From the NCBI RefSeq assembly GCF_000169175.1, contig NZ_AAWS01000002.1:248001-312000 (forward strand): a DNA stretch of 64,000 bases, given 5' to 3'. The notes beneath the pieces were generated by a model. That model had not been told where the DNA came from. It did no database searches and saw nothing but the letters and a program-made list of their open reading frames with translations. Below are positions 4,158-54,247 of this stretch, piece by piece. Position numbers and translations under genes: made by a program. The first letter of the stretch is position 1. Every line of letters begins with the position of its first letter. This stretch comes from Microscilla marina ATCC 23134 (GTDB lineage Bacteria; Bacteroidota; Bacteroidia; Cytophagales; Microscillaceae).

Positions 4158-4315
4158 TGATCTGGAAAAAATAAGCTGTGCCAATTCAAGAAAATATATT
4201 GTTCTCAGACGATTCAAAAAAAACGATGTATAGCCAAAGCTATGAAACTTTTTTTTGAGAAGAAGGAGGGCAATAGATACACTTTAATGGCTCAAATTTT
4301 TTATGAAAGATCACT
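4158..4315. repeat. Foldback (MITE-like) element, family I, copy 1
   Basis: This 158-bp block is nearly identical to 54089-54247. It begins TGATCTGG and ends AAGATCA(CT), giving short inverted ends. The inner sequence is also an imperfect palindrome: TTCAAAAAAAA pairs with TTTTTTTTGAGAA around TATAGC-CAAA-GCTATG, and the outer CCAATTC...ATATTG region mirrors CTATTG...AATGG. The right end overlaps the stop codon of the alpha/beta hydrolase gene (AAG TGA TC on the reverse strand). It encodes no protein. Flanking duplication is unclear for this copy. Confidence 0.85.
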
Positions 4316-5216
4316 TAAAGCCTGCCCCCTTCAGAAAAGCCCTGAGTTTTTGTATCATCCAGGTTTTGTCGTCATACATAATAAAGTGCTTGGCACTTTT
4401 GTGCATCAAAAACTGGTGTTGAGGAATGCGGGCAATCTGCCGGGTATAATTTTTTTTCACTGCTTCCAGTGGTGCACCGTATTCTTTGCCCCACCAAACC
4501 CCCATGACCAATGTGGGTGCCTTAATGTTGGCTACTTGTTGACGCAAGTCTATAGTATACAGCTCATACATTGCCTGAGCTATAGCTTTAGGGTCAGATT
4601 TTAAGTTCCACTGAAGCACTTGCTTGATGCGTGCCTCCGAGCTAATCATTGCCTGAACCGTCCGGAGTTGATTTTTTTTAGCCACTTCTTTAGAAACAGG
4701 CTTGAGCATTTGTTCTTTCATCTGTTGTGCAATGGGTTGCATACTTTGGGAGGTAGCAGCAGGATTTTGCATGCCACCTAAAAAAGGCAAGCCATCTACT
4801 GAGACCAGTTTTTGAATTAAGTTGGGGCGTTCGGCAGCAATCCAAAACGACATAAATCCTCCCAGGCTATGCCCAATAAGGGTGACATTTTTCAATTGCT
4901 TTTTGTCTATATAAGTAATGATTTGATCCTTGACCACGGGCAACATTGCGTTGGTCTTAAGAGCGGGTTGTCCGGCAAAACCAGCCAAAGTAAACACATG
5001 GCAAGCATACTCTTTTTTAAATACCGCTACAGTTTCGTTCCATACCTCTCCGGGGCAACCCAAGCCAGGAATAAACAATATATTGCCCGATTTATTGGTG
5101 CCGGTTACAGTTACTTTAAATGCTTTGGTACCATTGTCTGGGGTGGCAACAACTGCCGTAATGCCCAAAATAAGCGAGGTGATCAGGCTAATAAAAATAA
5201 CAGGTAATTTTTTCAT
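4311..5216 (-). CDS. Exported alpha/beta-fold hydrolase
   Basis: This 301-residue protein starts at ATG 5216 with a signal-peptide-like N-terminus (MKKLPVIFISLITSLILGIT...). The mature part has the oxyanion region LFIPGLGCPGEVW, the nucleophile elbow GHSLGG, and a late His in MHKSAKHFIMYDD that suits the catalytic triad. The acid residue probably lies near the strand with TLVMGVWWG, but I cannot place it firmly. Substrate is unknown; esters, lactones or amides are all possible. An in-frame upstream start at 5246 would put ten polar residues before the signal peptide, so I prefer 5216. The last codon and stop lie inside the end of a family I foldback element. Confidence 0.88.
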   Translation of the reverse strand: MKKLPVIFISLITSLILGITAVVATPDNGTKAFKVTVTGTNKSGNILFIPGLGCPGEVWNETVAVFKKEYACHVFTLAGFAGQPALKTNAMLPVVKDQIITYIDKKQLKNVTLIGHSLGGFMSFWIAAERPNLIQKLVSVDGLPFLGGMQNPAATSQSMQPIAQQMKEQMLKPVSKEVAKKNQLRTVQAMISSEARIKQVLQWNLKSDPKAIAQAMYELYTIDLRQQVANIKAPTLVMGVWWGKEYGAPLEAVKKNYTRQIARIPQHQFLMHKSAKHFIMYDDKTWMIQKLRAFLKGAGFK

Positions 5217-5722
5217 TGTGATTTGATTTGTGAATGATTTACTCAAAAGTACGGCAATTGATTACGCAAGAAAAGCAAAACATGACGAGCGGTACACCAC
5301 CTTGATAAGCGGTAAATCCAGGGCAAGGTGGCTTTGTCTGAAATAGGTATCAGAGAACTATTGCGTGACAGACAGGCGTGAAATACCTAAAATTTAGTTT
5401 TTATTTACTAATTTTGGCGGTTAATAAAACTACAAAACTCACCTGCTGGTCTAAACAGGTGTTTTGTTTTATAGAACACTTTGGTTTTTACGTTTTAACT
5501 AATGTTACTATGCTCCACAAAGATTTAAGCCAAAATGACTTGTTGATTAGGAGTAACTGATAGTCAACGATAAATTAGGTGAGTTACTTTCTAGCAAAAT
5601 TATAAACACTTAAAAATAAGCAACTTATACGTTTGTTGGTTGCTAGTAGAGCAGGGTGTACCTAAGGATTTGCGACTTGTCTCTTGAAGCTTGTACCTAT
5701 TAGTTAGACACTTTGTCTCCAA
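5217..5722. other. Intergenic gap with two hairpins
   Basis: No gene is supported here. CCACCTTG at 5297-5304 pairs with CAAGGTGG at 5324-5331. CACCTG near 5440 pairs with CAGGTG at 5456-5461 and is followed by a T-rich run, which looks like a terminator or attenuator with no obvious upstream gene. A copy of the dispersed motif AGCAGGGTGTACCT lies at 5650-5663. Confidence 0.5.
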
Positions 5723-7441
5723 ATGATTGAAAATATGAGGAAAAATTTACACTATTCAGCCTGGTTAATGCTATTGGTCTTACTTGTTGGAAACGTGATG
5801 TTTGTGCAAGCACAAACCCAGCGAGGTCCAATTGGAAAAAATGGCATGGTAGTAACTGCCCACCCTGACGCGTCTAAGATAGGTCTGGAGATTTTGAAAA
5901 AAGGAGGGAACGCGTATGATGCTGCTGTAGCAGTACAGTTTGCCCTAGCAGTGTGTTACCCGGCTGCCGGAAATATAGGGGGAGGTGGATTTATGGTGTA
6001 TCGCCATGCCGATGGCACCATTGGTGCCCTGGACTACCGCGAAAAAGCCCCCGCAAAAGCCCATCGTGATATGTACCTCGACAAAGGCGGCAAAGTAATC
6101 AAGAACTTGAGCCGTTATGGGCATTTGGCAGCAGGAGTACCCGGAGCAGTAGATGCCATGCTCAAAGTGCACCAAAGGTTTGGTAAGTTGCCTTTCAAAG
6201 AGGTTATACAGCCCTCTATAGATTTAGCCGCCCGTGGGGTGGTACTTACCGATAAAGAAGCCCAACGCCTGAACAAAAGCCGCAATGCTTTTTTTGACCA
6301 TAACACACAACCTCCTTATCCGCTGGTGCGCAATGACAAAACCCCGTTTAAAAAAGGCGATGTAACTATATATACCGACTTGGCAAAAACCCTGGAGCGC
6401 ATTCGTGACAAAGGTCGAGATGGTTTTTATGCTGGCAAAACTGCCGACTTGATTGTTAAAGAAATGAAAGCCGGAGGGGGCATTATATCCAAAGAAGACC
6501 TTCAAAATTATAGCGCAGTATGGCGCATTCCGGTGGCAGGTACTTACAAAGGTTACCGCATCATTTCTATGTGTCCCCCCTCTGCCGGAGGCATTGTGTT
6601 GTTGCAAATGCTCAAGATGGTAGAACCTTATGACCTGAGTAAAATGGGGTGGCAAACCCCCAAGACTGTACAACTCATGGTAGAAGCCGAGCGCAGGAGC
6701 TATGCCGACCGTGCCAAGTACCTGGGCGATTCTGATTTTTACCCAGTGCCCCTACACAATCTGCTGGATTCCGCCTACCTGAAGCAACGCATGAAAGACT
6801 TTAGCTTTGATAAAGCAGGAAGCTCTACAAAGACCAAAGAAGGCAAGTGGGGGAGCCATAGTGAAGAAACCACGCATTTTTCTATTGTAGACAAGGCAGG
6901 CAATGCAGTTAGCATTACTACTACGCTCAACAGTGGGTATGGGTCTTATGTCATGGTATCGGGTGCAGGTTTTTTGCTTAACAACGAAATGGACGATTTC
7001 AGTGTCAAACCTGGCGTACCCAATATTTACGGGTTGGTAGGCAACGAAGCCAACTCGATAGCACCCGGCAAGCGTATGCTAAGCTCTATGACACCTACCA
7101 TTATAGAAAAAAATGGTAAATTGAAAATGGTTGTAGGCACTCCGGGAGGTTCTACCATTACTACTTCGGTTTTTCAAACCATACTCAATGTGTTGGAACA
7201 TAACATGACTATGCAAGAGGCAGTCAATGCTCCACGGTTTCACCACCAATGGTTGCCCGACGAAGTGTTTGTAGAGAATAAGGCTCTGAGCCAAAAAACC
7301 AGGCAAATCTTGCGTAAACTGGGCTATATGATTCGTCCCAGGTCACCTATAGGTAGGGTAGAAGGTATTTTGGTATTGCCCCAAGGTAAACTGGAAGGAG
7401 GCGCCGATCGACGTGGCGATGATACAGCTTTGGGCTACTAG
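5723..7441 (+). CDS. ggt: Gamma-glutamyltransferase precursor
   Basis: This 572-residue protein has a signal peptide (hydrophobic core AWLMLLVLLVGNV, then FVQAQ) and a full GGT/Ntn-hydrolase body. The self-cleavage site is GSHSEETTHFSIVD, with nucleophile Thr384, giving large and small subunits. SITTTLNSGYGS and GTPGGSTITTSVFQ are the expected small-subunit motifs. The enzyme transfers or hydrolyses gamma-glutamyl groups of glutathione and related peptides in the periplasm. The first ATG is at 5723; ATG 5735 (MRKNLHYSAW) gives an equally good signal peptide. It is monocistronic, with an AGCCAGCAA/TTGCTGGCT inverted repeat downstream. Confidence 0.96.
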   Translation: MIENMRKNLHYSAWLMLLVLLVGNVMFVQAQTQRGPIGKNGMVVTAHPDASKIGLEILKKGGNAYDAAVAVQFALAVCYPAAGNIGGGGFMVYRHADGTIGALDYREKAPAKAHRDMYLDKGGKVIKNLSRYGHLAAGVPGAVDAMLKVHQRFGKLPFKEVIQPSIDLAARGVVLTDKEAQRLNKSRNAFFDHNTQPPYPLVRNDKTPFKKGDVTIYTDLAKTLERIRDKGRDGFYAGKTADLIVKEMKAGGGIISKEDLQNYSAVWRIPVAGTYKGYRIISMCPPSAGGIVLLQMLKMVEPYDLSKMGWQTPKTVQLMVEAERRSYADRAKYLGDSDFYPVPLHNLLDSAYLKQRMKDFSFDKAGSSTKTKEGKWGSHSEETTHFSIVDKAGNAVSITTTLNSGYGSYVMVSGAGFLLNNEMDDFSVKPGVPNIYGLVGNEANSIAPGKRMLSSMTPTIIEKNGKLKMVVGTPGGSTITTSVFQTILNVLEHNMTMQEAVNAPRFHHQWLPDEVFVENKALSQKTRQILRKLGYMIRPRSPIGRVEGILVLPQGKLEGGADRRGDDTALGY

Positions 7442-7455
7442 CGTATTATGAGCAA

Positions 7456-7506
7456 AGCCAGCAACAAATCATTGATATGTTCGTTATCTTTTGAGCTTGC
7501 TGGCTT
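7456..7506 (+). terminator. Inverted repeat after ggt
   Basis: AGCCAGCAA just after the ggt stop pairs with TTGCTGGCT about 35 bp further on. There is no long T run, so it may be a hairpin rather than an efficient terminator. Confidence 0.35.
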
Positions 7507-7751
7507 GAGTAAGTACACAACATATCTTAATTATATTGAAGTGGCACAACACCTCGATATTTGTCACTTCACAAAAACATTTACTTAGTAACAAAATGAT
7601 CCATTATAACAACACTCCATCGCTTTTAACTTCGTGTAGCTCAGCACAACAGCACAGCGTGTGTGCTTTGTCAAATAAAAGCACCAGGAAGAAGGTTTTC
7701 AACCTGTTGAATTTTAGTATAATACCAGGTGTTGATACTCGTACAACAGTG

Positions 7752-8717
7752 ATGGACTACTGTTATAAACATGTTACTTTTTTTGCCTGCCTGTTATTGC
7801 TGAGTTGGGCAAGCCTACAAAACACCGTTGCCCAGCGTCGTCCTTTTGGCGAAACCGAAGGTTATATGAGCTTTGGTATACAGCTCAATGCAATGAACTT
7901 TAAAGGAGATGTTTATTCTGATTTGTCGCTTACCCGTCCAGGTGTTTTTTTGCACGCCACCCGTAAATTGGGCGAAAGGGTACACGCCCGCCTAAGCATA
8001 GGGGTGGGACGTATTATGGGCAACGATATCAAAGCAGAAGAAAACAGTTTCAAGTATGCCCGTAACCTTAATTTTCGCAATGATTTAAAGGAAATCACTT
8101 TGGTAGGTACCTATGATATTGCCGGAAGCCCTGGACGTTTTTTTCGTCGCAGAGACTTTACGCCTTATGTGTTGGGTGGTATAGGTATAGTACATCATAG
8201 CCCCAAAGGACATGCCGAAGCAACCAGCGCCGCCCGCTGGACCGATTTGCAGGCGTTGGGTACCGAAGGACAAGGCAGGCCAGACTACGATACCCCCTAT
8301 AGCAAGGTGCAAGTAGTAGTTCCATTGGGTATTGGTTTACGCTGGAAGCTAAACCGCCGCTGGGACTTTGCCATTGAAGCCAGTGTGCGTTTGTCTCTGA
8401 CCGACTATTTAGATGATGTAGGAGGCAATTTTGTAGACCCCAGTGATTTGAACAGCGACTTAGCCAAAAGTTTTGCCAATCGGTCGTTTGAGGCAATAGG
8501 TGCCATTAACCGTACCCCAAGAAATGTAGGGCAATTGCGTGAGCAATACGGCTCTACCACTTATACTGGGTTTGATGGCAATGCTTACGAAAACCTCAAT
8601 AATTTGGGAGTGGGTGACGCCAGAGGTAAAAAAGGGAAAGATATTTATATTGTCACCGGATTTCACTTTACCTATATTATAGATACAGGGCTAAGCTGCC
8701 CTCAACTAAGGTGGTAA
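7752..8717 (+). CDS. Outer-membrane beta-barrel protein (DUF6089-like)
   Basis: The frame is open from 7536, but ATG 7752 starts a good signal peptide (ACLLLLSWASLQNTVAQR), while the 72 preceding residues look non-coding, so I call 321 residues. The mature protein has alternating beta strands (SFGIQLNAMNF, RLSIGVGRI, FTPYVLGGIGIVHHSP, VPLGIGLRWKLNRRWDFAIEASVR) and ends with a strand of the type FHFTYIID. This fits an OmpA-like or DUF6089-type outer-membrane barrel of Bacteroidota. The function is unknown; some relatives accompany gliding or T9SS loci, but nothing local supports that. A strong hairpin terminator follows directly. Confidence 0.75.
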   Translation: MDYCYKHVTFFACLLLLSWASLQNTVAQRRPFGETEGYMSFGIQLNAMNFKGDVYSDLSLTRPGVFLHATRKLGERVHARLSIGVGRIMGNDIKAEENSFKYARNLNFRNDLKEITLVGTYDIAGSPGRFFRRRDFTPYVLGGIGIVHHSPKGHAEATSAARWTDLQALGTEGQGRPDYDTPYSKVQVVVPLGIGLRWKLNRRWDFAIEASVRLSLTDYLDDVGGNFVDPSDLNSDLAKSFANRSFEAIGAINRTPRNVGQLREQYGSTTYTGFDGNAYENLNNLGVGDARGKKGKDIYIVTGFHFTYIIDTGLSCPQLRW

Positions 8718-8728
8718 AATGTAGGGCA

Positions 8729-8762
8729 TAAAAAAAGCGGGGTGGAAGCCTCGCTTTTTTTA
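8729..8762. terminator. Bidirectional rho-independent terminator
   Basis: AAAAAAAGCGGGG, a short loop, then CCTCGCTTTTTTT form a G/C stem flanked by A and T runs. It separates the barrel gene (+) from the TerB-like genes (-) and can serve both strands. Confidence 0.85.
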
Positions 8763-8770
8763 TCTTCAAC

Positions 8771-9160
8771 TCAATGGTTGGGATAAGGATTTTTGAACTT
8801 GTACCAGTTTTGATTCTTTGAGTCTTCAATAATTTCCTGCAACATTGCTTCGCTTTGTCCTATCTTAATAGCGTACCCCAAACAAAGCTCATACTCTTTC
8901 TCGTGTATTTCTTTGTCAATCATCATTACTTTTACAATGTCTGACAAGTGCAACATTTGTTGTTCTTCGGTATCTGGAATATGAAACTCATCCTGTGTGA
9001 TATTACGCATAATAGTAGCGGAGTCTCTAATACTTAGCCCCATGCGTATAGCTACTCCTACCAGTAACTCCCTTTCTTCGGTGGCTAGTTTTCCATCAGC
9101 AATGGCAACCAAAAAAAGGTTTTGGAAATACTTTTTAGCTCTTTCTTTATCTAGTGTCAT
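8771..9160 (-). CDS. TerB-like domain protein A
   Basis: This 129-residue helical protein has the TerB/TerB-like hallmark LVAIADGKLATEERELL near the N-terminus (ADGK followed by acidic residues) and a second similar half with MMIDKEIHEKEYELC. TerB-like domains are small all-alpha modules that often bind metal through acidic residues; they occur in tellurite-resistance operons and as stand-alone proteins. No other ter genes lie nearby, so tellurite resistance should not be inferred. It is about 30% identical by eye to the next gene downstream of it on the plus coordinate, with the same layout, indicating a tandem duplication. No signal peptide is visible, so it is probably cytoplasmic. Confidence 0.75.
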   Translation of the reverse strand: MTLDKERAKKYFQNLFLVAIADGKLATEERELLVGVAIRMGLSIRDSATIMRNITQDEFHIPDTEEQQMLHLSDIVKVMMIDKEIHEKEYELCLGYAIKIGQSEAMLQEIIEDSKNQNWYKFKNPYPNH

Positions 9161-9278
9161 TGATTTAAATGTTTTATGGCAATGAATTTCTTTCCTGGAT
9201 TTTGCACTTTTTCGAATAAAGTGTACAAAAGTCGAAAAAAACTCGCCAATTCGAAAATTGCTGATGTCTAAAAGTAAA

Positions 9279-9641
9279 TTATTTTAATCTATCCCTTTCA
9301 GCTTTTATACTATCAATGAGCCTATTCAGAGTGATTTCACTTTTACCTATTTTTTCGGCGTACCGTTTACAAAGTTCATATTCTTGGTTGTGAATATTAC
9401 CATCCGACATCATCATACTTACAATGTCTTTGAAGTGAGCCATTTGTTCATCTTTGCTCTGGGGCACCACAAAGTCCCGGTATCGGATATCGAGCATGAT
9501 CTCTGAGGCTTCCCGTGCATTAATCCCCATTTTTTGCGAAAACTTTACCAAAATCTTTTTTTCTTCATCGGCAAGTTTACCATCAGCAACTGCTATCAGA
9601 TACAGATTCTGAAAATAGTGAAGGGCTGTTTGTTTATCCAT
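9279..9641 (-). CDS. TerB-like domain protein B
   Basis: This 120-residue paralogue of the adjacent TerB-like gene begins MDKQTALHYFQNLYLIAVAD and shares the order YFQNLxLxAxADGKLAxEE, MxIxxREASxIM and MMSDGNIHNQEYELC. Both halves of the domain keep the acidic ADGK/SDGN positions. The two genes are on one strand with a 118-bp gap, so they may be co-transcribed or separately promoted. I see no partner gene that reveals a function. The 380-bp AT-rich region before it separates it from a divergent gene. Confidence 0.75.
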   Translation of the reverse strand: MDKQTALHYFQNLYLIAVADGKLADEEKKILVKFSQKMGINAREASEIMLDIRYRDFVVPQSKDEQMAHFKDIVSMMMSDGNIHNQEYELCKRYAEKIGKSEITLNRLIDSIKAERDRLK

Positions 9642-10079
9642 TTTACTTCCAACAATTTTAGGTTATTAAAATTTAGTTAAGCAAATAGTTTGTGTTTAAT
9701 CAACAAAAGTTTAACTATTTTATCGATAGAAATGTAAGCTTTGATCAGGTTGGTTAAGAGTATGCACCCAGCTCTGTTTTTTGAACAACTTGTAGCTCAT
9801 TATTAAAAGTAGAGAAGAGTGATGTGTCTAAATTACTCTCAGAAAGTTGTGTTTTAGGTAAGTTTTGCCAAAGAAGTTATTACTTTTCTTACGAACTACT
9901 TTTACGACAGGTTTTGTTATTGATTAAATACTTGATTAGCAGGTAAAATACTGAGGAGGTTTGGGTACAAATAGGTGGGTAATTTTGTGTTTTTTTGGTG
10001 AAAACCTACTTCTTTCAACGATTTGCTTTGTCTTATTAAAAATACATTTTTAATAAGAACCTTTATAATCAAAACAAGC
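9642..10079. other. AT-rich divergent intergenic region
   Basis: No gene is supported between the TerB-like gene (-) and the ARPP-1 gene (+). The gap should contain both promoters; one candidate is listed separately at 9960-9987. Confidence 0.5.
9960..9987 (+). promoter_or_regulatory. Candidate promoter for the ARPP-1 gene
   Basis: TTTG at 9960-9963 and TAATTTTG at 9980-9987 match the Bacteroidota -33 and -7 boxes. The spacer is 16 bp, shorter than the usual 17-21. The start codon lies 93 bp downstream. Confidence 0.35.
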
Positions 10080-11270
10080 ATGAAAATTATTCATATACTG
10101 TCACTGCTTTTGTTGGCAGGGTTTTGTGGTAGCCTGCAAGCCCAGCAGTTTAACCGCCAACACGTGAAAATCTCTTATGATAAGGGCACTACTGCAGGCA
10201 ATAAAAAGAATTTCACCTACAAAAACCTACGCTTATACCCAATCAGGGCAAGTAAAACATTTTTGAAGGACAGCAAAAACATAGGAAAGTATACGCCACT
10301 CAAGGTTGCCCTAAAAACCAAGAAAGTAGTCATTACCGAACAAAGTGCTCCTAGCAATGTGACCACAAACCCCAACACCAACAATGTACGAGGGTCTGTT
10401 GATACGACTACTCAGAGGTCAAGTAATACTGTTTCTACGCGAGTAAGGCGGTTGCATCGGGTTGACACAGCACAAGTAAGGCAAGCGCGTCGCCAGCATC
10501 GTCAGCATCAGGTACAAAGGCGCAATGTTTACCTACCCCAAAACATACAAAATCGTAGAGGAGGAAGTTCGGCTTCAGTAAACAACCTCTATATAGAAAA
10601 CAAATCACAAGATACTTTGTATATTATGGCAGGCGAAATAGTGCAAGGGGGCAAGCAAGATCGAGTGATTGCTCAAGATATGGTCATTCCTCCCAACAGC
10701 GGCAAGATAAACCTGTCGGTGTTTTGTGTAGAAAAAGGACGTTGGTCTTATAAAAAGTCTAAAAACAAAGATAATTTTGATGGCTATTATGGAGTGTCGA
10801 GCATTGCTTTGCGCAAGGTAGTAGACACCGAACAAAAACAGCAAAAGGTGTGGAAAGAGGTGGAACGATCGAACGCGAAAAATGCCGTAAAAAGTGGGAC
10901 GAGTGCTTATACCGAACAAAAAAAGAATGCCAAGTTTAAGAAAGAGTACCTGGCATACACGCATTTTTTTAAAAATAAATTTAAAGGTAAAAGCAACGTA
11001 ATAGGAGTAATAGTAGCCACGGGTGATCGGGTAGTAGGTTGCGACATGTTTGCTTCCCCTCACTTGTTTCAATCACAATATCAAAACCTATTGGGTTCTT
11101 ATATCAACGAAGCAGTGACCGACGGAGCTCCGGTACAAATAGCCGAAGCCAAGGTAGAAAAATACATGAGCGATTTGTTGGACAAGGAGCTAAAAAACGA
11201 AACAGAATTAAAGAAAAAAGGCAAAGTGTTTAAGCACAATCGAAAGAAGTTGCACGTGTCAAAATACTGA
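10080..11270 (+). CDS. Exported ARPP-1 (DUF6569) domain protein
   Basis: ATG 10080 begins a clear signal peptide (IIHILSLLLLAGFCGSLQAQ), giving 396 residues; the frame is open 19 codons further upstream without sense. The core resembles the ARPP-1 domain: LYIENKSQDTLYIMAGEIVQ, GGKQDRVIAQDMVIPPNSG, and SVFCVEKGRW. A poorly conserved insert rich in Arg, Gln and His (RRLHRVDTAQVRQARRQHRQ and onward) interrupts the domain between its first strands and this core. The tail is Lys-rich. ARPP-1 proteins have no settled biochemical role. The gene stands alone with a perfect 12-bp terminator stem after it. Confidence 0.7.
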   Translation: MKIIHILSLLLLAGFCGSLQAQQFNRQHVKISYDKGTTAGNKKNFTYKNLRLYPIRASKTFLKDSKNIGKYTPLKVALKTKKVVITEQSAPSNVTTNPNTNNVRGSVDTTTQRSSNTVSTRVRRLHRVDTAQVRQARRQHRQHQVQRRNVYLPQNIQNRRGGSSASVNNLYIENKSQDTLYIMAGEIVQGGKQDRVIAQDMVIPPNSGKINLSVFCVEKGRWSYKKSKNKDNFDGYYGVSSIALRKVVDTEQKQQKVWKEVERSNAKNAVKSGTSAYTEQKKNAKFKKEYLAYTHFFKNKFKGKSNVIGVIVATGDRVVGCDMFASPHLFQSQYQNLLGSYINEAVTDGAPVQIAEAKVEKYMSDLLDKELKNETELKKKGKVFKHNRKKLHVSKY

Positions 11271-11290
11271 GGTTGATTTTTTTGTAATTT

Positions 11291-11325
11291 AAGCCTGACT
11301 AGAACGCTAGTCAGGCTTTTTTTTA
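11291..11325 (+). terminator. Rho-independent terminator after ARPP-1 gene
   Basis: AAGCCTGACTAG (11291-11302), loop AACG, CTAGTCAGGCTT (11307-11318), then a T run. The 12-bp stem is perfect. Confidence 0.92.
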
Positions 11326-11433
11326 TCAGAGCAAACGCATCAAGTTATTTGGAAAAATCAGCTTCTTCAGAAGAAAGTTTTCAATAAATAATCTTTCACC
11401 TCTTTTTACAGACTAAATTATATTTTATTAAAT

Positions 11434-11513
11434 TAGACCTCTTGCGAAAGTCCCTAAAAACCGTTTTTGTTCAATACAAAAACAAGATAAAAAACACTTT
11501 CGCAAGAAGTCTA
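11434..11513. mobile_element. 80-bp palindromic MITE-like element flanked by TA
   Basis: TAGACCTCTTGCGAAAGT (11434-11451) is mirrored by ACTTTCGCAAGAAGTCTA (11496-11513) with one mismatch. An inner GTTTTTGT/ACAAAAAC hairpin fills the centre. If the outermost TA is the duplicated target, the element ends are GAC...GTC, as in miniature derivatives of IS630/Tc1-like or some IS5-group elements. There is no room for a transposase. It lies 71 bp upstream of the following hypothetical gene and could influence its transcription. Confidence 0.75.
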
Positions 11514-11584
11514 TTATGTTTTTATTCAGATTTTGATGCGTTAGCCCTGTTTTTTTATACTTTTTATCAACTAATATTAGCATT

Positions 11585-12437: not shown

Positions 12438-12477
12438 ACGAGATTTCTAAAATTAGGTGATATTTTTGAGTAGTAGC

Positions 12478-12511
12478 ACAAAAAAACCGTACAGTTCAAT
12501 ACTGTACGGTT
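12478..12511 (-). terminator. Terminator of tyrS
   Basis: ACCGTACAGT and ACTGTACGGT flank a five-base loop. On the reverse strand the stem is followed by a T7 run, just beyond the tyrS stop at 12537. Confidence 0.9.
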
Positions 12512-12536
12512 CAGTTACATATATGACCAAGTAAAG

Positions 12537-21431: not shown

Positions 21432-21450
21432 AATACGAATGTGTGATTTT

Positions 21451-33884: not shown

Positions 33885-34082
33885 TTAGGAATGGTGTAAA
33901 AATAAAGTTCTATAGTAGCGCCAAAATATTTTGTTGGCAGGAGAGGTAGGGCAATATCCAGTGGATGTTGAGCCAGCCCTGCGGGACGGCGTCATAGCAG
34001 CGCTACGTCAAGTTTTTTTAACGAATTCTGTCAGCGAAAGATGACGTTAAAAATGTAAATTTATTTTGGTACTATTCCTTAG
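33885..34082. repeat. Foldback (MITE-like) element, family II, copy A
   Basis: The left end TTAGGAATGGTGTAAAAATA is mirrored by the right end TATTTTGGTACTATTCCTTAG. An inner palindrome GTCATAGCAGCGCTACG lies mid-element. It shares ends and layout with 41210-41416 and 54370-54561. It sits 39 bp upstream of the di-heme peroxidase start. Confidence 0.7.
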
Positions 34083-35582: not shown

Positions 35583-36535
35583 TATAAAATCAACCTCCCG
35601 CGAAGGTCTTACCGCAGGGCGACCTGAGCAATGCTCACCCAAAACTTTGTAAATGACTTGTATATGATGTTTCGAGTGTTTGCGTGCTTTAGTCTCGTTT
35701 CACTAAGACCAAAGCAGGGGACTATGAACTTCGTCATTAAATAAACACCTCCTGCGAAGGTCTTACCGCAGGGCGACCTGAGCAATGCTCACCAAAAACT
35801 TTATAAACGACTTATATATGATGTTTCGAGTGTTTGCGTGCTTTGGTCTCGTTTCACTAAGACCAAAGCATGGGAGTATGAACTTCGTCATTAAATAAAC
35901 ACCTTCCGCGAAGGTCTTACCGCAGGGCGACCTGAGCAATGCTCACCCAAAACTTTGTAAATGACTTATATATGATGTTTCGAGTGTTTGCGTGCTTTGG
36001 TCTCGTTTCACTAAGACCAAAGCATGGGAGTATGAACTTCGTCATTAAATAAACACCTTCCGCGAAGGTCTTACCGCAGGGCGACCTGAGCAATGCTCAC
36101 CCAAAACTTTGTAAATGACTTATATATGATGTTTCGAGTGTTTGCGTGCTTTGGTCTCGTTTCACTAAGACCAAAGCATGGGAGTATGAACTTCGTCATT
36201 AAATAAACACCTCCTGCGAAGGTCTTACCGCAGGGTGACCTGAGCAATGCTCACCCAAAACTTTGTAAATGACTTGTATATGATGTTTCGAGTGTTTGCG
36301 TGCTTTGGTTTTTTAGCGTCGCTTGCGCTCATTAGCTAAAGCAGAGCTCCCTCATTCGTAATTAACCCATTCGTAATTAGCCAAAAGGCAGAGCTCCCCA
36401 CCTCCTGCGAAGGTCTTACCGCAGGGTGACCTGAGCAATGCTCACCCAAAACTTTGTAAATGACTTGTATATGATGTTTCGAGTGTTTGCGTGCTTTAGT
36501 CTTGTTTCACTAAGACCAAAGCGCAGGGGACAATA
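35583..36535. repeat. Six-copy tandem array, 154-bp unit
   Basis: A unit beginning GCGAAGGTCTTACCGCAGGG starts at about 35600, 35754, 35908, 36062, 36216 and 36407. The first five are exactly 154 bp apart; the last spacing is 191 bp because unit 5 has a different, longer end. Each unit contains a hairpin of GCTTTGGTCT and AGACCAAAGC around ten bases (copies 1 and 6 have GCTTTAGTCT), and GAGCAATGCTC. Units differ at only a few positions. Each unit also holds a short forward frame beginning MMFRVFACF (26 codons in units 1-4) and a 42-codon reverse frame beginning MTKFI; neither is shown to be translated. Confidence 0.95.
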
Positions 36536-41209: not shown

Positions 41210-41416
41210 TTAGTAATGGTTGAAAATAAGGCATCCATTTGGAGATAGAGATTTACCACTGAGGCGAGGCATTTTTTGCGTTCGTAGCAGCGCTACGAGC
41301 AATAACCGATGGCTACAGCTTTGCTGTGCCGAGCTCTGCCAAAGGCTAAAAATAACGAAGTATCAGTGGTAAAGGTCATTTCCTAAATCGAAAGATTATT
41401 TTTTGTCCATTACTTA
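41210..41416. repeat. Foldback (MITE-like) element, family II, copy B
   Basis: TTAGTAATGGTTGAAAATAA at the left end mirrors TTATTTTTTGTCCATTACTTA at the right end. Just inside, TTACCACTGA mirrors TCAGTGGTAA, and the middle holds CGTAGCAGCGCTACG. The sequence GAGCTCTGCCAAAGGCT also resembles, in reverse, AGCCAAAAGGCAGAGCTC in the 154-bp array (36399-36417). Confidence 0.75.
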
Positions 41417-44214: not shown

Positions 44215-44322
44215 TACTACTTGTCTGGTGTTCAACAATTAGCCAGGTAGTTAGTTATTGTTATGAAGGACTTACAAAGAGAGAGGGTAATATACCCTGC
44301 CTTTTCTACTGCTCTGCCATTT

Positions 44323-44378
44323 AGTAGCAACAAGTCTTGGATACCGATGCGTATTGGTACCCAAGACTTGCTGCTACT
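44323..44378 (+). terminator. Long near-perfect hairpin after the flavoprotein gene
   Basis: AGTAGCAACAAGTCTTGG-ATACC pairs with GGTA-CCCAAGACTTGCTGCTACT around a short loop (44323-44348 with 44353-44378). There is no strong T run, so it may be a hairpin or foldback relic rather than a classic terminator. Confidence 0.5.
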
Positions 44379-44429
44379 TATATTGAATACTTAAACATAG
44401 TTGTCAGTAATAAACCCCTAACCTCTTGA

Positions 44430-47400: not shown

Positions 47401-49367
47401 CCAGTGATATTAAGGTGAAAAACCTAAAAGCAATGGACCTGGCAATGGGTGACCTTACTGTGGGGGTGAGCGACAAAGATCTTGCGGGGATTACCAAGAT
47501 ACAAGTATTGCTGAAGGGTAGAAATAATCGCCTGCGTGCCAACGGTTCGTATGACCTTAACAAAGACAGCTTATACTTGTTTGCTGGAATATCTCAGATC
47601 AGGCTTGAACCCTTCAGGCCTTTGGTGTCTGACTATATAACCAAGCTACATGGCAGGTTGAGCGCCCGACTGCGCATTGCGGGGCCTTTGCTTCAGCCCA
47701 ATATCAATGGAGATATTAGGTTTAAAGGTAAAAATACGGTGCAGGTAAAAATGTTGGGAGAGCCTCATTTTATCGAAGACCAACGCATTTACTTTGATGG
47801 TGACCAAGTCAAGTTTAAAAACTTTACCATTACCGACCAAAACGGACAAACCAATACAATCAATGGTAAAATTCATAACCTGGGCTTTAGTGCTTTTTAT
47901 ACCAACCTTAAGGTAAAAGGAGATAATTTTCAATTGATGAAGTCGAGTGCCTACAATTTTAAAACCTTGTATGGTACCATTGTGAGCGATTATGACATTA
48001 AAGTAGATGGTTTGCTGGATGACCTGAAAATAAAGGCAGATGTAACAGTGAAGCCTGGCTCTAATGTGTATACATCGATAGATGATGAAGGGGCTGCCAG
48101 TGTAAGACAAAGCGATTTTATTAAGTTTGTAGATGCTGACTCTACCAAAACCAAAGACACTACCAAAGCAAGAGCCCAGACTGATCTTACTGGCTTTACA
48201 ATCAAGTCGGTGATTAGGGTAACCCCCGAAACAAAGCTACATATTATAATAGATGAAGCTACCAACGACCGTATGGAGTGTTCGGGTACTACGGTGCTGA
48301 GTGTAAACATGGACAGTACTGGAGAAATTGAGCTATCAGGTGACTATATTATAGAAACCGGAAAGTATACCATGAACTTGTTTGAAGTGGTGCGCAAAGA
48401 AATTGAAGTGCAAAAGGGGAGCAGTGTACACTTTTTTGGCGACCCTATGCAAGGCATCATGAATATTACGGCTATTTATGAAACCAAAACATCTACTTAT
48501 AATTTACTGGTCGATCGTATTTCGGCAGAACAAACTGCGGAGATAGAGCAGGCAAAACGAATTATTCCGGTGCAAGTACTGATACACTTGCGGGGCAAGT
48601 TTATGGAGCCTCAAATTAGTTTTGATATTGAGTTGCCCAAAGACAAGGTGCGCAACCCCAGCCCGGCACTTACCAGTAAACTTAACGAAATAAGAAATGA
48701 CCAAAACCAACTCTACAAACAGGTTTTTGGGTTGATAGTACTGGGGCACTTTATTACTTCCGAAGAGGCACAAGGCGGCAATGGGGTAGATGTAACCTCC
48801 CAGTTGGGGTCGGGGCTGAGTGGTTTTTTGAGTTCTCAGCTCAACAAATTGTCTGATGATTATTTGGGAGGAGTACAAATTGACATTGATTTAAGTAATA
48901 ATAGTGATTATTCGCAAGACCGGGAACTAGCGGTACAATTGTCCAAGAAGTTTTTCAACGATCGACTCAAGGTATCGGTGGGTAGTTTTGTAAGCCTTGA
49001 CAACCACGACAATAATGAAGAAAATTCGCACCAAAACCTGATAGGAGATGTAACAGTAGAGTATCGTTTAAATGAATCGGGTAATTTAAGCCTTAAGTTT
49101 TTTCGCCGAACCAACAACAATGGGGCCGCAAGCGGTCTTACCCAGCAAAACAACCAAACCAATGGGTTTTCGGTGAGTTACCAGAAAAACTTTAATAGAT
49201 TAGGGGATTTGTTTAGACGCAAAAAGGTGAAAAACAGTCGGCCACCCAAGAAAGAAAATACCCAGAAAGAAAACACTCCCAAAAAAGATACCCCGAGAAA
49301 AGACGAGGAAACAAAAAAGACGGAATTAAAAGGGAAGGAGAGCAAGAAAGAAGAAAAAAAGGACTAA
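44430..49367 (+). CDS. TamB-like translocation and assembly protein
   Basis: The 1645-residue protein has an N-terminal membrane anchor (FSVKFIVYSVASVLLLFSVV), an AsmA-like start (LVDQATGYLRKKLKTKVEIK) and a very long series of beta strands, ending in the DUF490/TamB domain at about 1100-1560 with ETGKYTMNLFEVVRKEIEVQ and EIELSGDYIIE. The final 60 residues are strongly charged (KKENTQKENTPKKDTPRKDE and onward). An acidic insert (EAEAEVEAEVELEA) interrupts the beta region near residue 230. TamB proteins span the periplasm and help insert outer-membrane proteins or move lipids with TamA/BamA-like partners. No omp85 gene is adjacent here. Confidence 0.9.
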   Translation: MKITGKKIIKFSVKFIVYSVASVLLLFSVVWGAIQIPAAQQYLVDQATGYLRKKLKTKVEIKRVNIEFFKTVVLEDIFVADRQDDTLLYAKKFKVTLHSFSLLDKQLQTQEVGFEGVNLYLHRSSKSPDFNYQFLIDAFSSSDSTKKPEPKKDSTAGWDIDLHKVRLKNLKLHWWDDRSKLFLQTQMKDFKADFETLGLDNKHPVINQLMFDGLDLKFRQAPHQQEAEAEVEAEVELEAGKKLTPKDSTQKAVTDTLDTALNSSGYRIDLKSLVFKNCDFRYDDDSRKPANRSSIDYNHLIAKDFSADIRQIKIGKNNLSFDMRSLAFAEKSGFRLKQFALSMDLDYPQVSIDAGKIQTNNSVFHRGFKLRLPSIESIEASVDSTFFDADFTQDSLGFKDITFFTGALPPALQGQTVKFGGSIKADKNKLYLDKFMVGFNARNSFETTLEVNNFTDYAQAHYNLNLHYLKVAPAFLQSLLPTPLPAQLMLVPDIRTELRLKGYLSQLEGDCLLQTVLGELESDFKLQTNAKFDNNRLQANLSGKAIQVGTLTGVADVGALNFSASTSIAQSPHLFRVDTLSADVNSFEYKKYVYKGLKIASKFVDDIAESKVVYKDDEAHVVLRNVINLKEKRPKVFLLGDVHQLHLKKLNLFDQKLDIKTQIVGEVQGFDADSLTGYLKVTHAKVAYQERNLELDSLRLTISQQDSTRNIVLKSDIMDAHVKGQFHLSELPQAFDIFAHSYYTGYATDSLKLKHTEQFTVNAHIHKNPRLLYAFAPTLKLPFELDIDVTFDASTNFLMAQVSTPALGYAGQKANNFYLNLRTRRKKLKVFWSCSNIETKENIDIKSPSFRTTIEKDKASFNFRVKSDSLKTDMALYGKVNAKTDTFAIALHDSFIEIEKQKWKFKQDCKITFNPYNEYLFVDSLALTHNDQSLLLQSRTNDDNKIVQELDIIKFDIDSIPLLFGLSPYKLGGVINGNLAVTNVFDIEKITSDIKVKNLKAMDLAMGDLTVGVSDKDLAGITKIQVLLKGRNNRLRANGSYDLNKDSLYLFAGISQIRLEPFRPLVSDYITKLHGRLSARLRIAGPLLQPNINGDIRFKGKNTVQVKMLGEPHFIEDQRIYFDGDQVKFKNFTITDQNGQTNTINGKIHNLGFSAFYTNLKVKGDNFQLMKSSAYNFKTLYGTIVSDYDIKVDGLLDDLKIKADVTVKPGSNVYTSIDDEGAASVRQSDFIKFVDADSTKTKDTTKARAQTDLTGFTIKSVIRVTPETKLHIIIDEATNDRMECSGTTVLSVNMDSTGEIELSGDYIIETGKYTMNLFEVVRKEIEVQKGSSVHFFGDPMQGIMNITAIYETKTSTYNLLVDRISAEQTAEIEQAKRIIPVQVLIHLRGKFMEPQISFDIELPKDKVRNPSPALTSKLNEIRNDQNQLYKQVFGLIVLGHFITSEEAQGGNGVDVTSQLGSGLSGFLSSQLNKLSDDYLGGVQIDIDLSNNSDYSQDRELAVQLSKKFFNDRLKVSVGSFVSLDNHDNNEENSHQNLIGDVTVEYRLNESGNLSLKFFRRTNNNGAASGLTQQNNQTNGFSVSYQKNFNRLGDLFRRKKVKNSRPPKKENTQKENTPKKDTPRKDEETKKTELKGKESKKEEKKD

Positions 49368-49401
49368 AATACTGTAAGCCACTATTGTTATCCTACCTTA
49401 T

Positions 49402-49692
49402 GAAAGTTTAAAGTCTACCCTACTATTTTTTCGCCTCGATTTGTGTCTCCACAACCGAGTTTACGAGTCCTCAGATACCGATGAATGTCGGTGCTCAGCA
49501 AAGCTAAATCACCCTGTCGCAGAGCCTGGGAACAGTGCTTTTCAAGGTTTCGATCAGCTCATGGAGACACGACCTGAGGCGATGACGGTACTTTGGAAAA
49601 ACCGAAGCTATTTCTAAATCCTGATTCATCAAGACAGTTTTACTGTGCTGAGTTCAACGAAGTTAAAAACTGGGTAGAGTAGTTCAAAGTCT
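49402..49692. repeat. Foldback region after tamB
   Basis: CGCCTCGATTTGTGTCTCCA (49432-49451) is mirrored by TGGAGACACGACCTGAGGCG (49562-49581). Inside lies ACCGATGAATGTCGGT, and the outer AAAGTCTACCCTACT/GGGTAGAGTAGTTC stretches are also roughly inverted. There is no protein frame; it looks like a diverged foldback element, not an obvious member of families I or II. Confidence 0.55.
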
Positions 49693-49874
49693 TGTACTTA
49701 TTAAAAAATAAAAACTACAAAACAATACTTTTGTGATTTTCCGAACTTACTTACATTACACCTATTCAAATATAAAGCTTATCTTTTCCAAGAGTTTTGG
49801 ATGCCCTTGGAAAGCAATTTTTATCTAAGATGCACGCAAGCACAGATAAACCCTGTTGGGGGAGTGTTTTTTCC

Positions 49875-50504
49875 TTAAAACTTAAGTGTTAAACTCAAGG
49901 CCGCAAAGTTGCTAAATGGGGTACTCTCCATGGTTGGTTCTAACCTGAAACTGAGGTCGTCGTTCAGGTCAAAGTCCATCAGGTGGGCATCTACGTTGGC
50001 ATCTACCATTTGTAAACCATACACCAATACCGAAAGAATAATCATAAAGTCACGGTCGCGTTTTGCCTGATCTTGAATAGTTTTAAGGTTTTCGGCAGTC
50101 AGGTTAAAGGATGCTTCATAGTTGGGGTCCTGGCTTTTTTTTACGTATTCGTTTCTAAACTGTAAAAACCGTTGGTGTTGGCGGTTTATTTCCAGACCAA
50201 GCAAGGCACCTCCTCCGTAAATAATGATTAGTTTCCAGGGTTTACGGTTATATATTTGCCCAAACCCCGGAAAAGCAGCCGAATATAACAGGGCTTTGCG
50301 GGGAGAGTTACTCCTTCTTTTTCGCTTTTTGTTCGATAACCGTCCCCCTTTTTTTATTACCACAGTATCTTTCACGGTGAGAGTAGGTTTTACCGTAGTC
50401 GAGGGCTTGATTTGGGGCACAGAGTCCTGCACCTGAGCTTCAGACACACCTATGGACATTAGCAAAATACCCGCAAGGCAAAATAATCCTCTATACAAGT
50501 TCAT
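49875..50504 (-). CDS. DUF5683 membrane protein
   Basis: The 209-residue protein starts at ATG 50504 with a signal/anchor (FCLAGILLMSIGVSEAQVQ), then a basic linker (NKKRKRRSNSPRKALLYSA), then SAAFPGFGQIYNRKPWKLII and a glycine-rich helix pair ending FMIILSVLVYGLQMVDANVD. This order matches DUF5683, a Bacteroidota family of membrane proteins related in pattern to TM2-type proteins. Function is unknown. An in-frame ATG at 50525 only adds seven residues. It converges with tamB across the foldback region. Confidence 0.82.
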   Translation of the reverse strand: MNLYRGLFCLAGILLMSIGVSEAQVQDSVPQIKPSTTVKPTLTVKDTVVIKKGGRLSNKKRKRRSNSPRKALLYSAAFPGFGQIYNRKPWKLIIIYGGGALLGLEINRQHQRFLQFRNEYVKKSQDPNYEASFNLTAENLKTIQDQAKRDRDFMIILSVLVYGLQMVDANVDAHLMDFDLNDDLSFRLEPTMESTPFSNFAALSLTLKF

Positions 50505-50887
50505 TTTCAAAAAATATTTGCACATCTTACGCTCTTTGTTAAAATTATAAATTTAATGTCATTAACCTTAAAAAACACTTCAAACCTTGCTACAGGTTGT
50601 TTTTCTGTCAAAATCCTGTCAGATTCTTCATTTCATTCTTATTTTGGTTTATATTGTTACGTTTTTTAAAAAATATTTGCTACAAGTTTTGGGTTACGTT
50701 CTACTTTAATTTTGTATAAATGTTTACAAAAACTGTAATACCTTACATCGAAGAAAACTTCGCGCAAATCAAAAAAAATAACAGGAATTATTTTTAAATA
50801 AAGTATTTTTGAACAATATTTGATCGCTTAAAACGCGTGAAATTCAAGGATGCAAATATAGCGGTTTCATTTAAAAACATATAAATT
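50505..50887. other. AT-rich divergent intergenic region
   Basis: No gene is supported between the DUF5683 gene (-) and the OppA-like gene (+). The AT content is high and no strong hairpin was seen. Confidence 0.4.
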
Positions 50888-51754
50888 ATGATGCGACGAT
50901 TCACCCTTTTAGCTGCACTTGCTGTTTGTTTATTATCCTGTGGGCCAGGAAACAAAACAACAAACAACACTAATGACAGTAAAAAGATTTTTCGCTTGAA
51001 CCTGACAGGGGGACTGACTTCGCTTGATCCGGTTTTTGCCGATCAAAGAACAAACATTTGGGCTACTACTCAATTGTACAATGGGTTATTTACCTTTGGG
51101 GAAGATTTACACGTTCACCCTGAGTTGGCAGAAAACTACAAGATTTCTGAAGATGGGCTGACGTATACCTTCACCATCAAAAAAAATGTTTACTTTCACG
51201 ATGATCAGGCTTTTAAAAATGGCCGGGGACGTGAAGTAATTGCCGATGACTTTGTTTACTCATTCAAGAGATTAATGGATCCTAGAACTGCCGCAAAAGG
51301 TTCTTGGATATTTGCCGACAAGGTAAAGCAAAGCGCCGACAAGAAATTGGCGGATGACTGGATTGAAAAAATAGATGATTATTCATTTAAAATTACTCTT
51401 AATCGACGATTTCCCGCATTTTTACAAATCTTGTCTATGCCGTTTACTTTTGTAGTAGCAAAAGAAGCAGTAGAGAAGTATAACAAAGACTTCAGAAAAC
51501 ACCCAGTAGGCACTGGTCCTTTTATGCTTAAGACCTGGAACGAAAAAGATCGTCTGATCTTGGTAAAAAACACCAAATACTGGAAGCGTGACGTAAAAGA
51601 TCAAACGTTGCCTTACCTTGATGCAATAGATGTATCATTTATTGAAGATAAAAACCAAGCTTTCTTAAGCTTCGAAAAAGGTAGCTTACACTTCCTGACC
51701 AGTATTTCGGAAACTTCTCGTAACAAGATTCTTAACAAAGATGGAAGCATTAAA

Positions 51755-53224
51755 TTGTAGAAATTAAAAAGGGTATAAAAAATTGAATTCCAATTAATTA
51801 TACCCATAATTCATTGCAAAAGGTTATTATTATATCTCCTAAAACATCATAATAGCTTTTACAATGAATATACATTTTAAAAAAACTTTCGTAAAGAACT
51901 ATCCTCTTTAGTAAAAAAATATTTTCGTGGTCATTTTTGTGAGGAGGTCAACATATTTACTACCATTTCGGAAACATTTGATAAATCGTGTTTGAGTTTA
52001 GAGGAATGCACTAAACTAGAAAAGCTTCTGCAGGTTTTTTATTTGGGTCAATTGGTAGGTTTACCTACTTTGAACAGTATCTTAGTGAAGCATGGGGTTG
52101 TGAGCAATTCTGCTCAAATCAGCTATCAAAAGTTGGCTTCTAATTTATCTATTAGCACCATTCGGAAGCTATTTGAAGAGGTTTTTTCGGCTCAGTAAGG
52201 GTCAGGTACTCCAAGAAATGAGTGAAAAAGATTCAAGTTGTTGGTCAAAAACAACGGTCACTGTTGTGTTGGATGATAGCGTGTTTCGGTGTTGGCTATC
52301 TTCTCAGAATCATTTGAAAGATTTTGAGGAGTGCTACGGGAAATTTTTTAGTGGTCAGTTTGGTACAAGTGTGTATGGTTTTCGGGTGTTGACCCTTGGG
52401 GTGAGCATTGATGGGGTATTTTACCCACTTTTCTTTGATTTTATCAAGAAGAAAACCTCCAACGCTTATCAGAAACCAGCAAAAGTAGCTCAAAAGCTTG
52501 TGAGGCGCTGGGGAGAATATCGCAAAAAGCTGACTAGAACTGGGTATGATTTTCCTACACTTCACCTGAGTTGTGACAATGGATATAGTAATGAGGCTTT
52601 GGCAGAAAGTTGTGCCCAAAATGGACTTTGTTACATCAGTGTAACCAAAAAATCTCATTATGTGGTAATAGAGGGTCAAAAGGTAAAGCTCTCTGATTGG
52701 ATTGAGAAAGAATTTATCCCAGCAGAGCAAGCTCATCAAGCGAGTCAAAAAATGCTTCCTGAGGAAGATAAAACCACTTTTAAAAGGAGAATAAGTGCCT
52801 ATTATTGTAGCAAGAAACAAGCTGTAACTTTGCTGTTTTTTCGGCTCAATGGATCAAAGAAAGTAAGTGTTATTTATAGCACAAGTAAACATATTTTCGC
52901 CAAAACCTTGCGAAGACACTGGTTTCAGAGAACTTATATTGAACAGTTTTTCAAATTACTCAAACATGTGCTCCAAATTGGGGAAGCCAGAACAAAAGAC
53001 AAAAAAGGTTTTGAATTCAAGTTATACCGATTTTCTTATGTAGCCTTGCACGCACAAAAACTGGTGAAATGGATCAGAAAACAAATGAAGGGTTTTAACA
53101 AAAAAGGGTTCATTACCATACAGCGAACCCTTAATTCAGACCCGGATATTTTAGACCTTTTGCAAGAAAAATTAATAGCAAACATTTGTAAATCAAATAG
53201 TTATAAACAATGAAATAATTACAA
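51755..53224 (+). mobile_element. IS4-superfamily insertion sequence
   Basis: The 1470-bp element is bounded by TTGTAG...TACAA imperfect inverted ends (about 31 bp) and by ATTAAA on both sides (51749-51754 and 53225-53230), a 6-bp target duplication. It carries one transposase gene broken by two frameshifts. It interrupts the OppA-like gene in frame with intact flanks, which suggests a fairly recent insertion. Confidence 0.88.
51864..53213 (+). pseudogene. IS4-like DDE transposase with two homopolymer frameshifts
   Basis: ATG 51864 reads MNIHFKK, then an A7 run shifts the frame to KNFRKELSSLVKKYFRG and on to STIRKLFEEVF; a T6 run near 52185 shifts it again to RLSKGQVLQEMSEKDSSCW, which runs open to 53213. 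Adding one A and removing one T would join the three parts into one protein of about 449 residues. Catalytic candidates are DDSVF, SCDNGYSNEA and the C-terminal RTYIEQFFKLLK (R-x3-E-x6-K, the IS4 signature with Trp in place of the usual Tyr). No programmed frameshift is known for this family, so it is probably inactive unless the runs are miscalled or slipped in transcription. Confidence 0.8.
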
Positions 53225-54088
53225 ATTAAAGATGATTTCAGTAGCAAATTTGTAGTAGAGAAAAAACCTTACATGCTCACCGAGTATATTGGTATTTTGA
53301 TGGAAGGCACTGACGAAAAAGCCAATCCAATGCTCAATAAAAAGGTACGTAAGGCTTTGAGTTATGCCATTAACCGCAAAAACCTGATTTCGTTTATCAG
53401 AAATGGCTTAGGTACACCAGGTAGCCACGGTTTTATACCTGATGCACTCTCTTCGTTTGACTCTACACAAATTCAAGGGTACAAAGTAGACATTAAAAAA
53501 GCGCAGGAATTGCTAAAAGACGCTGGATACCCACAAGGCAAAGGTTTTCCTGAGATTACGTTGAGTACTTATACTACTGACAAAGAAATTGCTGGATTCT
53601 TGCAAAAGCAATGGGAAGATAACTTGGGAATAAAGGTGAAAATTGAAAGCAATCAGTTTGCTACCCACAAAGATATGGTAGACAACGCCAAAGTGAAGTT
53701 CTTCCGTGGCTCGTGGATTGGTGACTATCCAGATGCCGAAAACTTCCTTTCTTTGTTTTACAGCAAAAACTTCTCACCAGATGGACCTAACAAGACTCAC
53801 TTTGCCGATGAGACTTATGATAAACTGTTTGAAGAAGCACACGAAACAGACAACACTTTTACCCGATACTCTGATTACAATAAGATGGATCAGATCATTA
53901 TGGACAATGCTCCTGTAATTGTATTGTTTTATGATGAAGTGTTGAACCTGAAGCAAAAAAATGTGACTGGTTTGAAAACCAACACAATGAATACGTTGGT
54001 ACTTGAAAAAGTAGACCTTAAATCAGGCAACAACGCTTCGGCAAACGCTGATGACAAAAAAGAAGAAAAGAAAGAGGAAACCTCTAAG

Positions 54089-54247
54089 TGATCTGGAAAA
54101 AATAAGATGTGCCAATTCAAGAAAATATATTGTTCTCAGACGATTCAAAAAAAACGGTGCATAGCCAAAGCTATGAAGCTTTTTTTTTGAGAAGAATGAG
54201 GGCAATAGATACACTTTAATGGCTCAAATTATTTATGAAAGATCACT
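54089..54247. repeat. Foldback (MITE-like) element, family I, copy 2
   Basis: A 159-bp near-copy of 4158-4315, with TGATCTGG and AAGATCA ends and the central CATAGC-CAAA-GCTATG palindrome. The outer bases are flanked by CTAAG on both sides (54084-54088 and 54246-54250), which fits a 5-bp target duplication. Its left end supplies TGA as the stop codon of the OppA-like gene; without it the codon after AAG would be TAA, so the protein end would be unchanged. Confidence 0.88.

Follow-up and report, generated by a model that had tools for sequence, protein, structure and literature searches.

What are the two near-identical foldback repeats that stand at gene ends in one 64,000-nucleotide stretch of the Microscilla marina ATCC 23134 genome (contig NZ_AAWS01000002.1, positions 248,001 to 312,000, hereafter the window), and what has moved them? 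An earlier note on this DNA had described them as Family I, a pair of protein-free and almost palindromic elements that might target gene ends or act as terminators. Both repeats are real and protein-free, with corrected limits given in Table 1, and the genome of the window (G000; 9.77 Mb in 135 contigs, an assembly 98% complete) contains 90 members of their family. Family I is a miniature inverted-repeat transposable element (MITE), being short, multi-copy and devoid of a transposase gene, with inverted ends, a target duplication and empty sites. We regard it as highly probable that an ISAzo13-family transposase, acting in trans, moves these non-autonomous elements and that copies within genes have been lost.

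Copies, target duplications and empty sites of Family I

The 90 copies were recovered with a 32-base core allowing up to three mismatches; the core read backwards gave none. They measure 156 to 192 bp as extracted, exactly 159 bp in 61/90, and are thus too short to hold a transposase. The first seven bases match between both ends in 84/90 copies, forming terminal inverted repeats, and the motif AAATAA is found exactly at bases 13-18 of both ends in 82/90. The earlier note had asked for many copies with consistent ends, and such copies are present; the ends that it proposed, TGATCT and AGATCA, are consistent but one base short, the true ends being GTGATCT...AGATCAC with a leading G. An identical TWA triplet (W standing for A or T) lies on both sides of 78/90 copies (TAA/TAA in 44 and TTA/TTA in 34; one further copy has TGA/TGA), corresponding to a 3-bp target duplication and not to the 5-bp duplications that had been predicted. 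The CTAAG previously read as such a duplication at copy 2 is in fact C+TAA+G, a duplicated TAA that happens to have a C before it and a G after it. Sixty-three distinct sequences are represented among the 90 copies, and the commonest, which is that of window copy 2, occurs in 14 of them, which points to a recent spread.

Among 57 relatives searched at the DNA level, Family I was detected in two only, G000 itself and a second genome of the same genus (G001). The latter was searched with the joined flank pairs of ten G000 sites, both window sites included; these ten were chosen among the 90 for their coding flanks, not at random, and the alignments were read by eye. Family I is present at 0/10 of the tested sites in G001. 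Five show a clean empty site with a single TWA (L078, L075, L077, L103 and window copy 2), in keeping with the clean insertion that the earlier note had expected to see in relatives, and five have other sequence at or near the site (L073, L048, L017, L091 and window copy 1). At the copy 2 site G001 reads CTCTAAGTAA, with the gene end AAG TAA and its last codons unchanged, exactly the empty site that had been reconstructed from the window. At the copy 1 site the element is also absent, and about 95 unrelated bases are found instead, so that this empty site is not clean. An empty TTA is likewise seen in other copies (L005, L071) of a repeat within which the Family I copy L008 sits. Two insertions (L029/L153 and L043/L159) are common to G000 and G001, indicating that part of the family is older than the split between the two species.

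Reduced forms lie outside the 90 copies, namely an internally deleted Family I copy (L143) and a relic of 30 bases (L142). Moreover, a 24-base remnant, GTGATCTTTCATAAATAAGATCAC, which retains both tips and has lost the interior, is present at three loci of G000, on contig C14 near 85644 (L222, flanks TTA/CTA), C26 near 76267 (L223, TTT/TTT) and C40 near 46297 (L224, TTA/TTA, first base changed), and in interrupted form on C55 near 7295 (L225). It may be either the product of a deletion that recurs or a very small mobile element. The element nested in the L225 remnant has the ends TACCAAATCG...TTGGTA and TAA on both sides, and a similar sequence lies within a duplicated block of the window (60395-61143). 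At G000:C5:233458-233867 (L144/L115), a Family I copy is split by an inverted-repeat insert with ends AACTGACCTTTCGCAG.

Related foldbacks and the link to ISAzo13-family transposons

Sister elements with other tips are present in the window (Table 1). A scan for foldbacks flanked by TNA over 21 stretches amounting to 464 kb (the window and 20 stretches of 20 kb) gave eight from 49 candidates, as compared with three from 31 in reversed sequence. Apart from Family I, those that look real are the two GGAATGG elements and an element with GTAACGT tips (L192); one with GAGCTTG tips (L189) is perhaps real, and the other three look like chance. Copy 2 of the window was found in this way, but not copy 1, the first base of which is mutated. 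Two tandem elements of the GGAATGG kind, judged by their ends, occupy in G001 a TTA that has no insertion in G000.

The wider order was surveyed with a covariance model built from an alignment of 32 elements, which were chosen for diversity and fall into three subfamilies (tips GTGATCT, GTGATGT and GTAAAGC): 22 of the 63 distinct G000 sequences, three Family I sequences of G001, two members of subfamily II and five of subfamily III. The model matches 6/291 genomes of the order (G000, G001, G003, G060, G180 and G192), and the relatives beyond G000 and G001, those in G060, G180 and G192 being weak ones, were found by this model alone, not by DNA search. In G060 and G192 the tips vary between copies, and the two ends within a copy agree in 5-7 of 7 bases. 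Common to the other foldback families of the order are TWA flanks, G as the first base, 7-base tips that match each other but are specific to the family and, in most cases, a box resembling AAATAA at bases 13-18.

ISAzo13 elements begin with a G and generate 3-bp duplications. A duplication of this length is also attributed to the family in the accessible part of a published account (PMC10045372). Searching the six genomes with PF07592 (E 0.001) returned two matches in G003, which belongs to the same taxonomic family as the window's genome, and one fragment in G001. Both ends of the two G003 elements (L227 and L229) are resolved, with TAA and TTA duplications, and these ends, GGAATGGTAATTAAATAA and GTAAGGGGCAAAAAATAA, are close to the foldback ends GGAATGGTGAAAAAATAA and GTAAAGCGGAAAAAATAA. 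Of these, L229 (G003:C63), which has the TTA duplication, is nested in a foldback-like element and contains an open reading frame (ORF) of 313 aa that may or may not encode a whole transposase. Eight further ISAzo13 elements were taken from plasmids, out of 30 listed of 156 matching records; TWA duplications and G-starting ends are present in 6/8 (Calothrix, Methylomonas, Thiothrix, two Streptomyces and Skermanella), and the remaining two (L234, L237) have no resolvable ends. ISAzo13 elements with an end signature like that of Family I occur within its own taxonomic family as well as in three further phyla. Family I resembles these G003 and plasmid elements in its 3-bp TWA duplication, G-starting inverted ends, element-specific tips and AAATAA box, whereas it differs in size and content, ISAzo13 elements having 1.3-1.75 kb and a transposase gene and Family I having 159 bp that fold over their whole length.

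A table of ends was compiled for 26 elements (18 foldbacks and eight ISAzo13), with the row of window copy 1 registered one base off. The tips agree in 5-7 of 7 bases in all 26. Exact AAATAA occupies bases 13-18 in 28/52 ends (11/16 for ISAzo13 and 17/36 for the foldbacks, one row of which is misregistered), with a background of 20/6076 single ends at TWA-G sites, and the looser NANNAA is found at this position in 48/52 ends, misregistered row included, versus 229/6076 background sites.

An ISAzo13 enzyme is very probably the mover of Family I. Such a transposase would recognise both ends by the leading G, the 7-base tip and the AAATAA box, and cleavage of the ends followed by their joining to a T-W-A target, staggered by 3 bp, would leave TTA or TAA on both sides. 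Copies landing within genes would be lost, so that survivors would be found in intergenic positions or at stop codons, with Family I supplying its own TGA in the latter case. As no ISAzo13 gene was detected in the G000 assembly, we infer this mobilisation; the partner may have been lost from G000 or be located in its unassembled part. An active MITE usually shares its genome with the transposase, whereas an orphan one need not.

Several observations weigh against the assignment. PF07592 was not found at E 0.001 in G000, G060, G180 or G192, and the match in G001 is a fragment only (L228, G001:C32:17692-18009), possibly what is left of the lost partner. Neither a left-end pattern allowing up to three mismatches nor a right-end pattern led to an insertion sequence with close Family I ends in G000; the insertion sequence with the same ends that the earlier note had envisaged is thus represented by ISAzo13 as a class with the same kind of ends, but by no close match in this genome. 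The flanking triplets are unmatched in 11/90 Family I copies. TTAA stands on both sides in 5/7 of the G060 and G192 copies read, which would fit a 4-bp duplication, and two matches of the covariance model, L218 (G192) and L206 (G180), have no TWA pair at their matched limits, so that their membership is doubtful and they are perhaps different elements. The box is not universal either: the Streptomyces ISAzo13 ends have AAACAA/AATCAA and CATCAA/CATTAA, the Skermanella element has GAATAA/AAATAA, the G060 and G192 foldbacks have AAGTAA or AAGAAA with AAAAAA, and foldback L189 is without it.

Reading ten extra end matches in G000 yielded the relic L142, the shortened copy L143, a subfamily II element (L145), two sites with no second end (L146, L147), the solo 24-base remnants L222-L224, the interrupted remnant L225 and a right-end relic (L226). 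No autonomous partner was present among 100 listed of the 364 matches to the exact 9-base end in G000, nor was one found by a scan of the fetched DNA for long inverted repeats. Relatives of IS5/PIF-Harbinger-type transposases also use TWA or TNA targets, and a MITE dependent on such an enzyme would show the same target type. G000 contains 22 DDE_Tnp_1 matches, including the single-copy loci L126, L127 and L131, around which no ends were recognised among inverted repeats. The three multi-copy DDE_Tnp_1 elements have ends that differ from those of Family I. Searches of G000 gave no match to DDE_Tnp_4 and one broken match to DUF4096 below the cut-off, the whole-genome end patterns gave no insertion sequence, and the fixed-distance AAATAA box was met in ISAzo13 ends, IS5-family ends lying outside the survey. 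We consider an IS5/PIF-Harbinger-type mover very unlikely and retain mobilisation by ISAzo13.

Placement relative to genes and the foldback structure

In the genes adjoining both window copies the last codons are AAG TGA, the TGA being part of the element, as the earlier note had described (Table 1), and that note suggested that Family I may target gene ends or act as a terminator. Placement and orientation were evaluated with genes predicted by a non-standard, home-made hexamer caller, and the p values for placement are uncorrected over eight comparisons and two rank tests. Disruption of an ORF of at least 100 aa, more than 25 nt from its stop, is seen for 5/90 copies, compared with 2077/3000 random TWA sites. 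The stop-proximity test was limited to sites that lie outside predicted ORFs or reach no more than 12 nt inside the stop, that is 82/90 copies and 824/3000 background sites; eight copies more than 12 nt inside a predicted ORF were dropped, including window copy 1, whose empty-site ORF runs 25 nt on, as were 2164 background sites more than 12 nt inside an ORF and 12 with missing neighbours.

Among these gene-sparing sites, 25/82 copies fall between 12 nt inside and 30 nt beyond a stop, versus 166/824 random sites (odds ratio 1.7, p 0.03), and convergent gaps hold 11/82 versus 54/824 (p 0.04), a small excess that agrees with the suspected enrichment at gene ends. The stop codon itself is used by 6/82 copies versus 28/824 random sites, which is not significant (p 0.12), nor does the distance to the nearest stop differ significantly between copies and random gene-sparing TWA sites (p 0.10). 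Tandem gaps are depleted (34/82 versus 496/824, p 0.001), and divergent gaps are as frequent as expected (25/82 versus 209/824). The avoidance of gene bodies, together with the use of TAA as both stop codon and target, explains most of the enrichment at stops, and since this is only about 1.7-fold, targeting of gene ends is not needed. The placement data favour removal of harmful insertions over targeting and remain compatible with a mild gene-end preference. The intergenic position of Family I thus probably results from the loss of harmful insertions, and we judge a mechanism that seeks gene ends, or selection there as a terminator, to be highly improbable.

Both window copies fold back, as expected from their description as near-palindromes, but the palindrome is imperfect, with 55/78 arm columns matching in copy 2 (in an arm alignment not favouring G-U). 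Copy 2 folds at -51.1 kcal/mol (z -7.6) and copy 1 at -39.0 kcal/mol (z -4.4), each relative to 60 shuffles. In the 32-element alignment the consensus structure has 47 pairs, 14 of them with changes on both sides; paired cells amount to 98.0% versus 42.0-53.3% for slid partners, and the covariation score is 0.184 versus 0.061 when shuffled. The foldback is conserved by paired changes across the subfamilies.

Such conservation makes an RNA-level function possible. As a transcribed hairpin the foldback could serve in the termination, protection or processing of neighbouring mRNAs and be kept for this reason, a role compatible with mobility, and several features are in line with it besides the paired changes. 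The forward strand folds better in 88/89 copies and the z-score is lower on the strand called forward in 12/13 exemplars, the choice of strand being arbitrary for families not linked to Family I by homology; copy 2 contains a terminator-like hairpin on both strands. G-U-type arm mismatches outnumber A-C-type ones, 96 versus 62 (binomial p 0.008 if independent), but the 17 exemplars are related, and the observed G-U share of 0.61 is at the upper edge of the 0.48-0.61 predicted by composition alone. Moreover, a terminator search found no such hairpin inside copy 1, and neither the strand beside stop codons (17 sense versus 14 antisense, p 0.72) nor the orientation of flanking genes (24 versus 19, p 0.54) shows a preference. 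An Rfam search of window positions 53900-54500 gave ten matches at E 1 or better, none above the gathering score. Retention of the family for an RNA role appears rather unlikely.

The paired changes could also have arisen without selection, through hairpin-templated correction between the arms during replication, the foldback being a by-product. Template switching is known to occur at long inverted repeats, and the agreement of the tips in all 26 elements of the end table, although they differ between families, would be accounted for. On the other hand, 18 transversion columns persist between the arms of copy 2, and the persistence of many arm mismatches argues that such correction is not general; we hold this explanation to be unlikely. 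A more tentative and rather unlikely proposal is that the foldbacks constitute a structure-constrained superfamily spanning several genera of one order, in which the fold and the AAATAA box would be read by a transposase or the host, the terminal seven bases would be free provided that both ends change together, and the conserved apical hairpin (CATAGC...GCTAYG) would work as RNA or extruded DNA.

Comparison with known elements and features of the window

ERIC elements are full-length foldbacks like Family I, with a TA target unlike it; the ends and target of Correia elements (NEMIS) also differ from those of Family I, and Cardinium, the host of MITECca01, is another member of the Cytophagales. 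ERIC elements of enterobacteria further resemble Family I in being short, intergenic and present in tens to hundreds of copies, with effects at the 3' ends of genes reported in the accessible part of a review of prokaryotic MITEs (PMC10969869), and differ in sequence and hosts. According to the same part of that review, the Correia elements of Neisseria are MITEs whose transcripts undergo RNase III cleavage at the inverted ends. MITECca01 differs from Family I as a derivative of the IS982 family of about 240 bp (PMC9769881, accessible part). Zator transposons are related to ISAzo13 and share the 3-bp duplication with Family I, but are eukaryotic (PMC10045372, accessible part).

A term search of the review PMC10969869 returned no mention of ISAzo or Bacteroid, and in the open-licence papers searched "miniature inverted-repeat" was not found together with Microscilla or Cytophagales. 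A link between ISAzo13 and MITEs was not found in those papers, of which the only one naming both, PMC9208149, leaves them unlinked in its accessible part; subscription journals and ISfinder were outside the search, so that the assignment may already be known. It places orphan palindromic repeats of the order in a named transposase family by an end rule (TWA, G, matched tip and AAATAA at 13-18) that is usable for annotating such repeats elsewhere. In addition, the two Microscilla species offer natural pairs of filled and empty genes in which to ask whether foldback MITEs at stop codons alter transcript ends.

Table 1. Foldback elements of the window and their parts (positions in the window).
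Feature	Position	Strand	Remarks
Family I element, copy 1	4157-4314	+	158 bp; first base T, family has G
Left TTA target duplication, copy 1	4154-4156		
Right TTA target duplication, copy 1	4315-4317		
TGA within copy 1	4311-4313	-	Stop of alpha/beta-hydrolase gene 4311-5246
Family I element, copy 2	54088-54246	+	159 bp, GTGATCT...AGATCAC
Left TAA target duplication, copy 2	54085-54087		Single TAA at same place in G001
Right TAA target duplication, copy 2	54247-54249		
AAATAA box, copy 2 left end, bases 13-18	54100-54105	+	Columns 13-18 invariant in family alignment
AAATAA box, copy 2 right end, bases 13-18	54229-54234	-	
Apical hairpin CATAGCCAAAGCTATG of copy 2, between A-run and T-run	54160-54175		Terminator-like, both strands
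TGA within copy 2	54089-54091	+	Stop of upstream gene 53273-54091 (SBP_bac_5 domain)
Sister foldback, tips GGAATGG/GGAATAG	33888-34078	+	TTA duplication, AAATAA box
Sister element, tips GTAATGG	41213-41413	+	TTA both sides, right at 41414-41416; left box shifted one base; read by eye
Sister foldback, tips GGAATGG	54374-54558	+	TAA duplication, AAATAA box

Other repeated sequences were noted in the window and its genome. The region adjoining copy 2 (52173-53213) holds a transposase-like ORF (346 aa) of an insertion sequence, for which nine near-identical copies of about 1480 bp are present among the loci found. Window positions 35593-36522 comprise a unit in six copies with a period of mostly 154 bp. 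Finally, seven TAAGTGATC motifs lie on one strand at G000:C4:141301-142169 with spacings of 127-183 bases, three of which are 138, and probably represent a tandem array.

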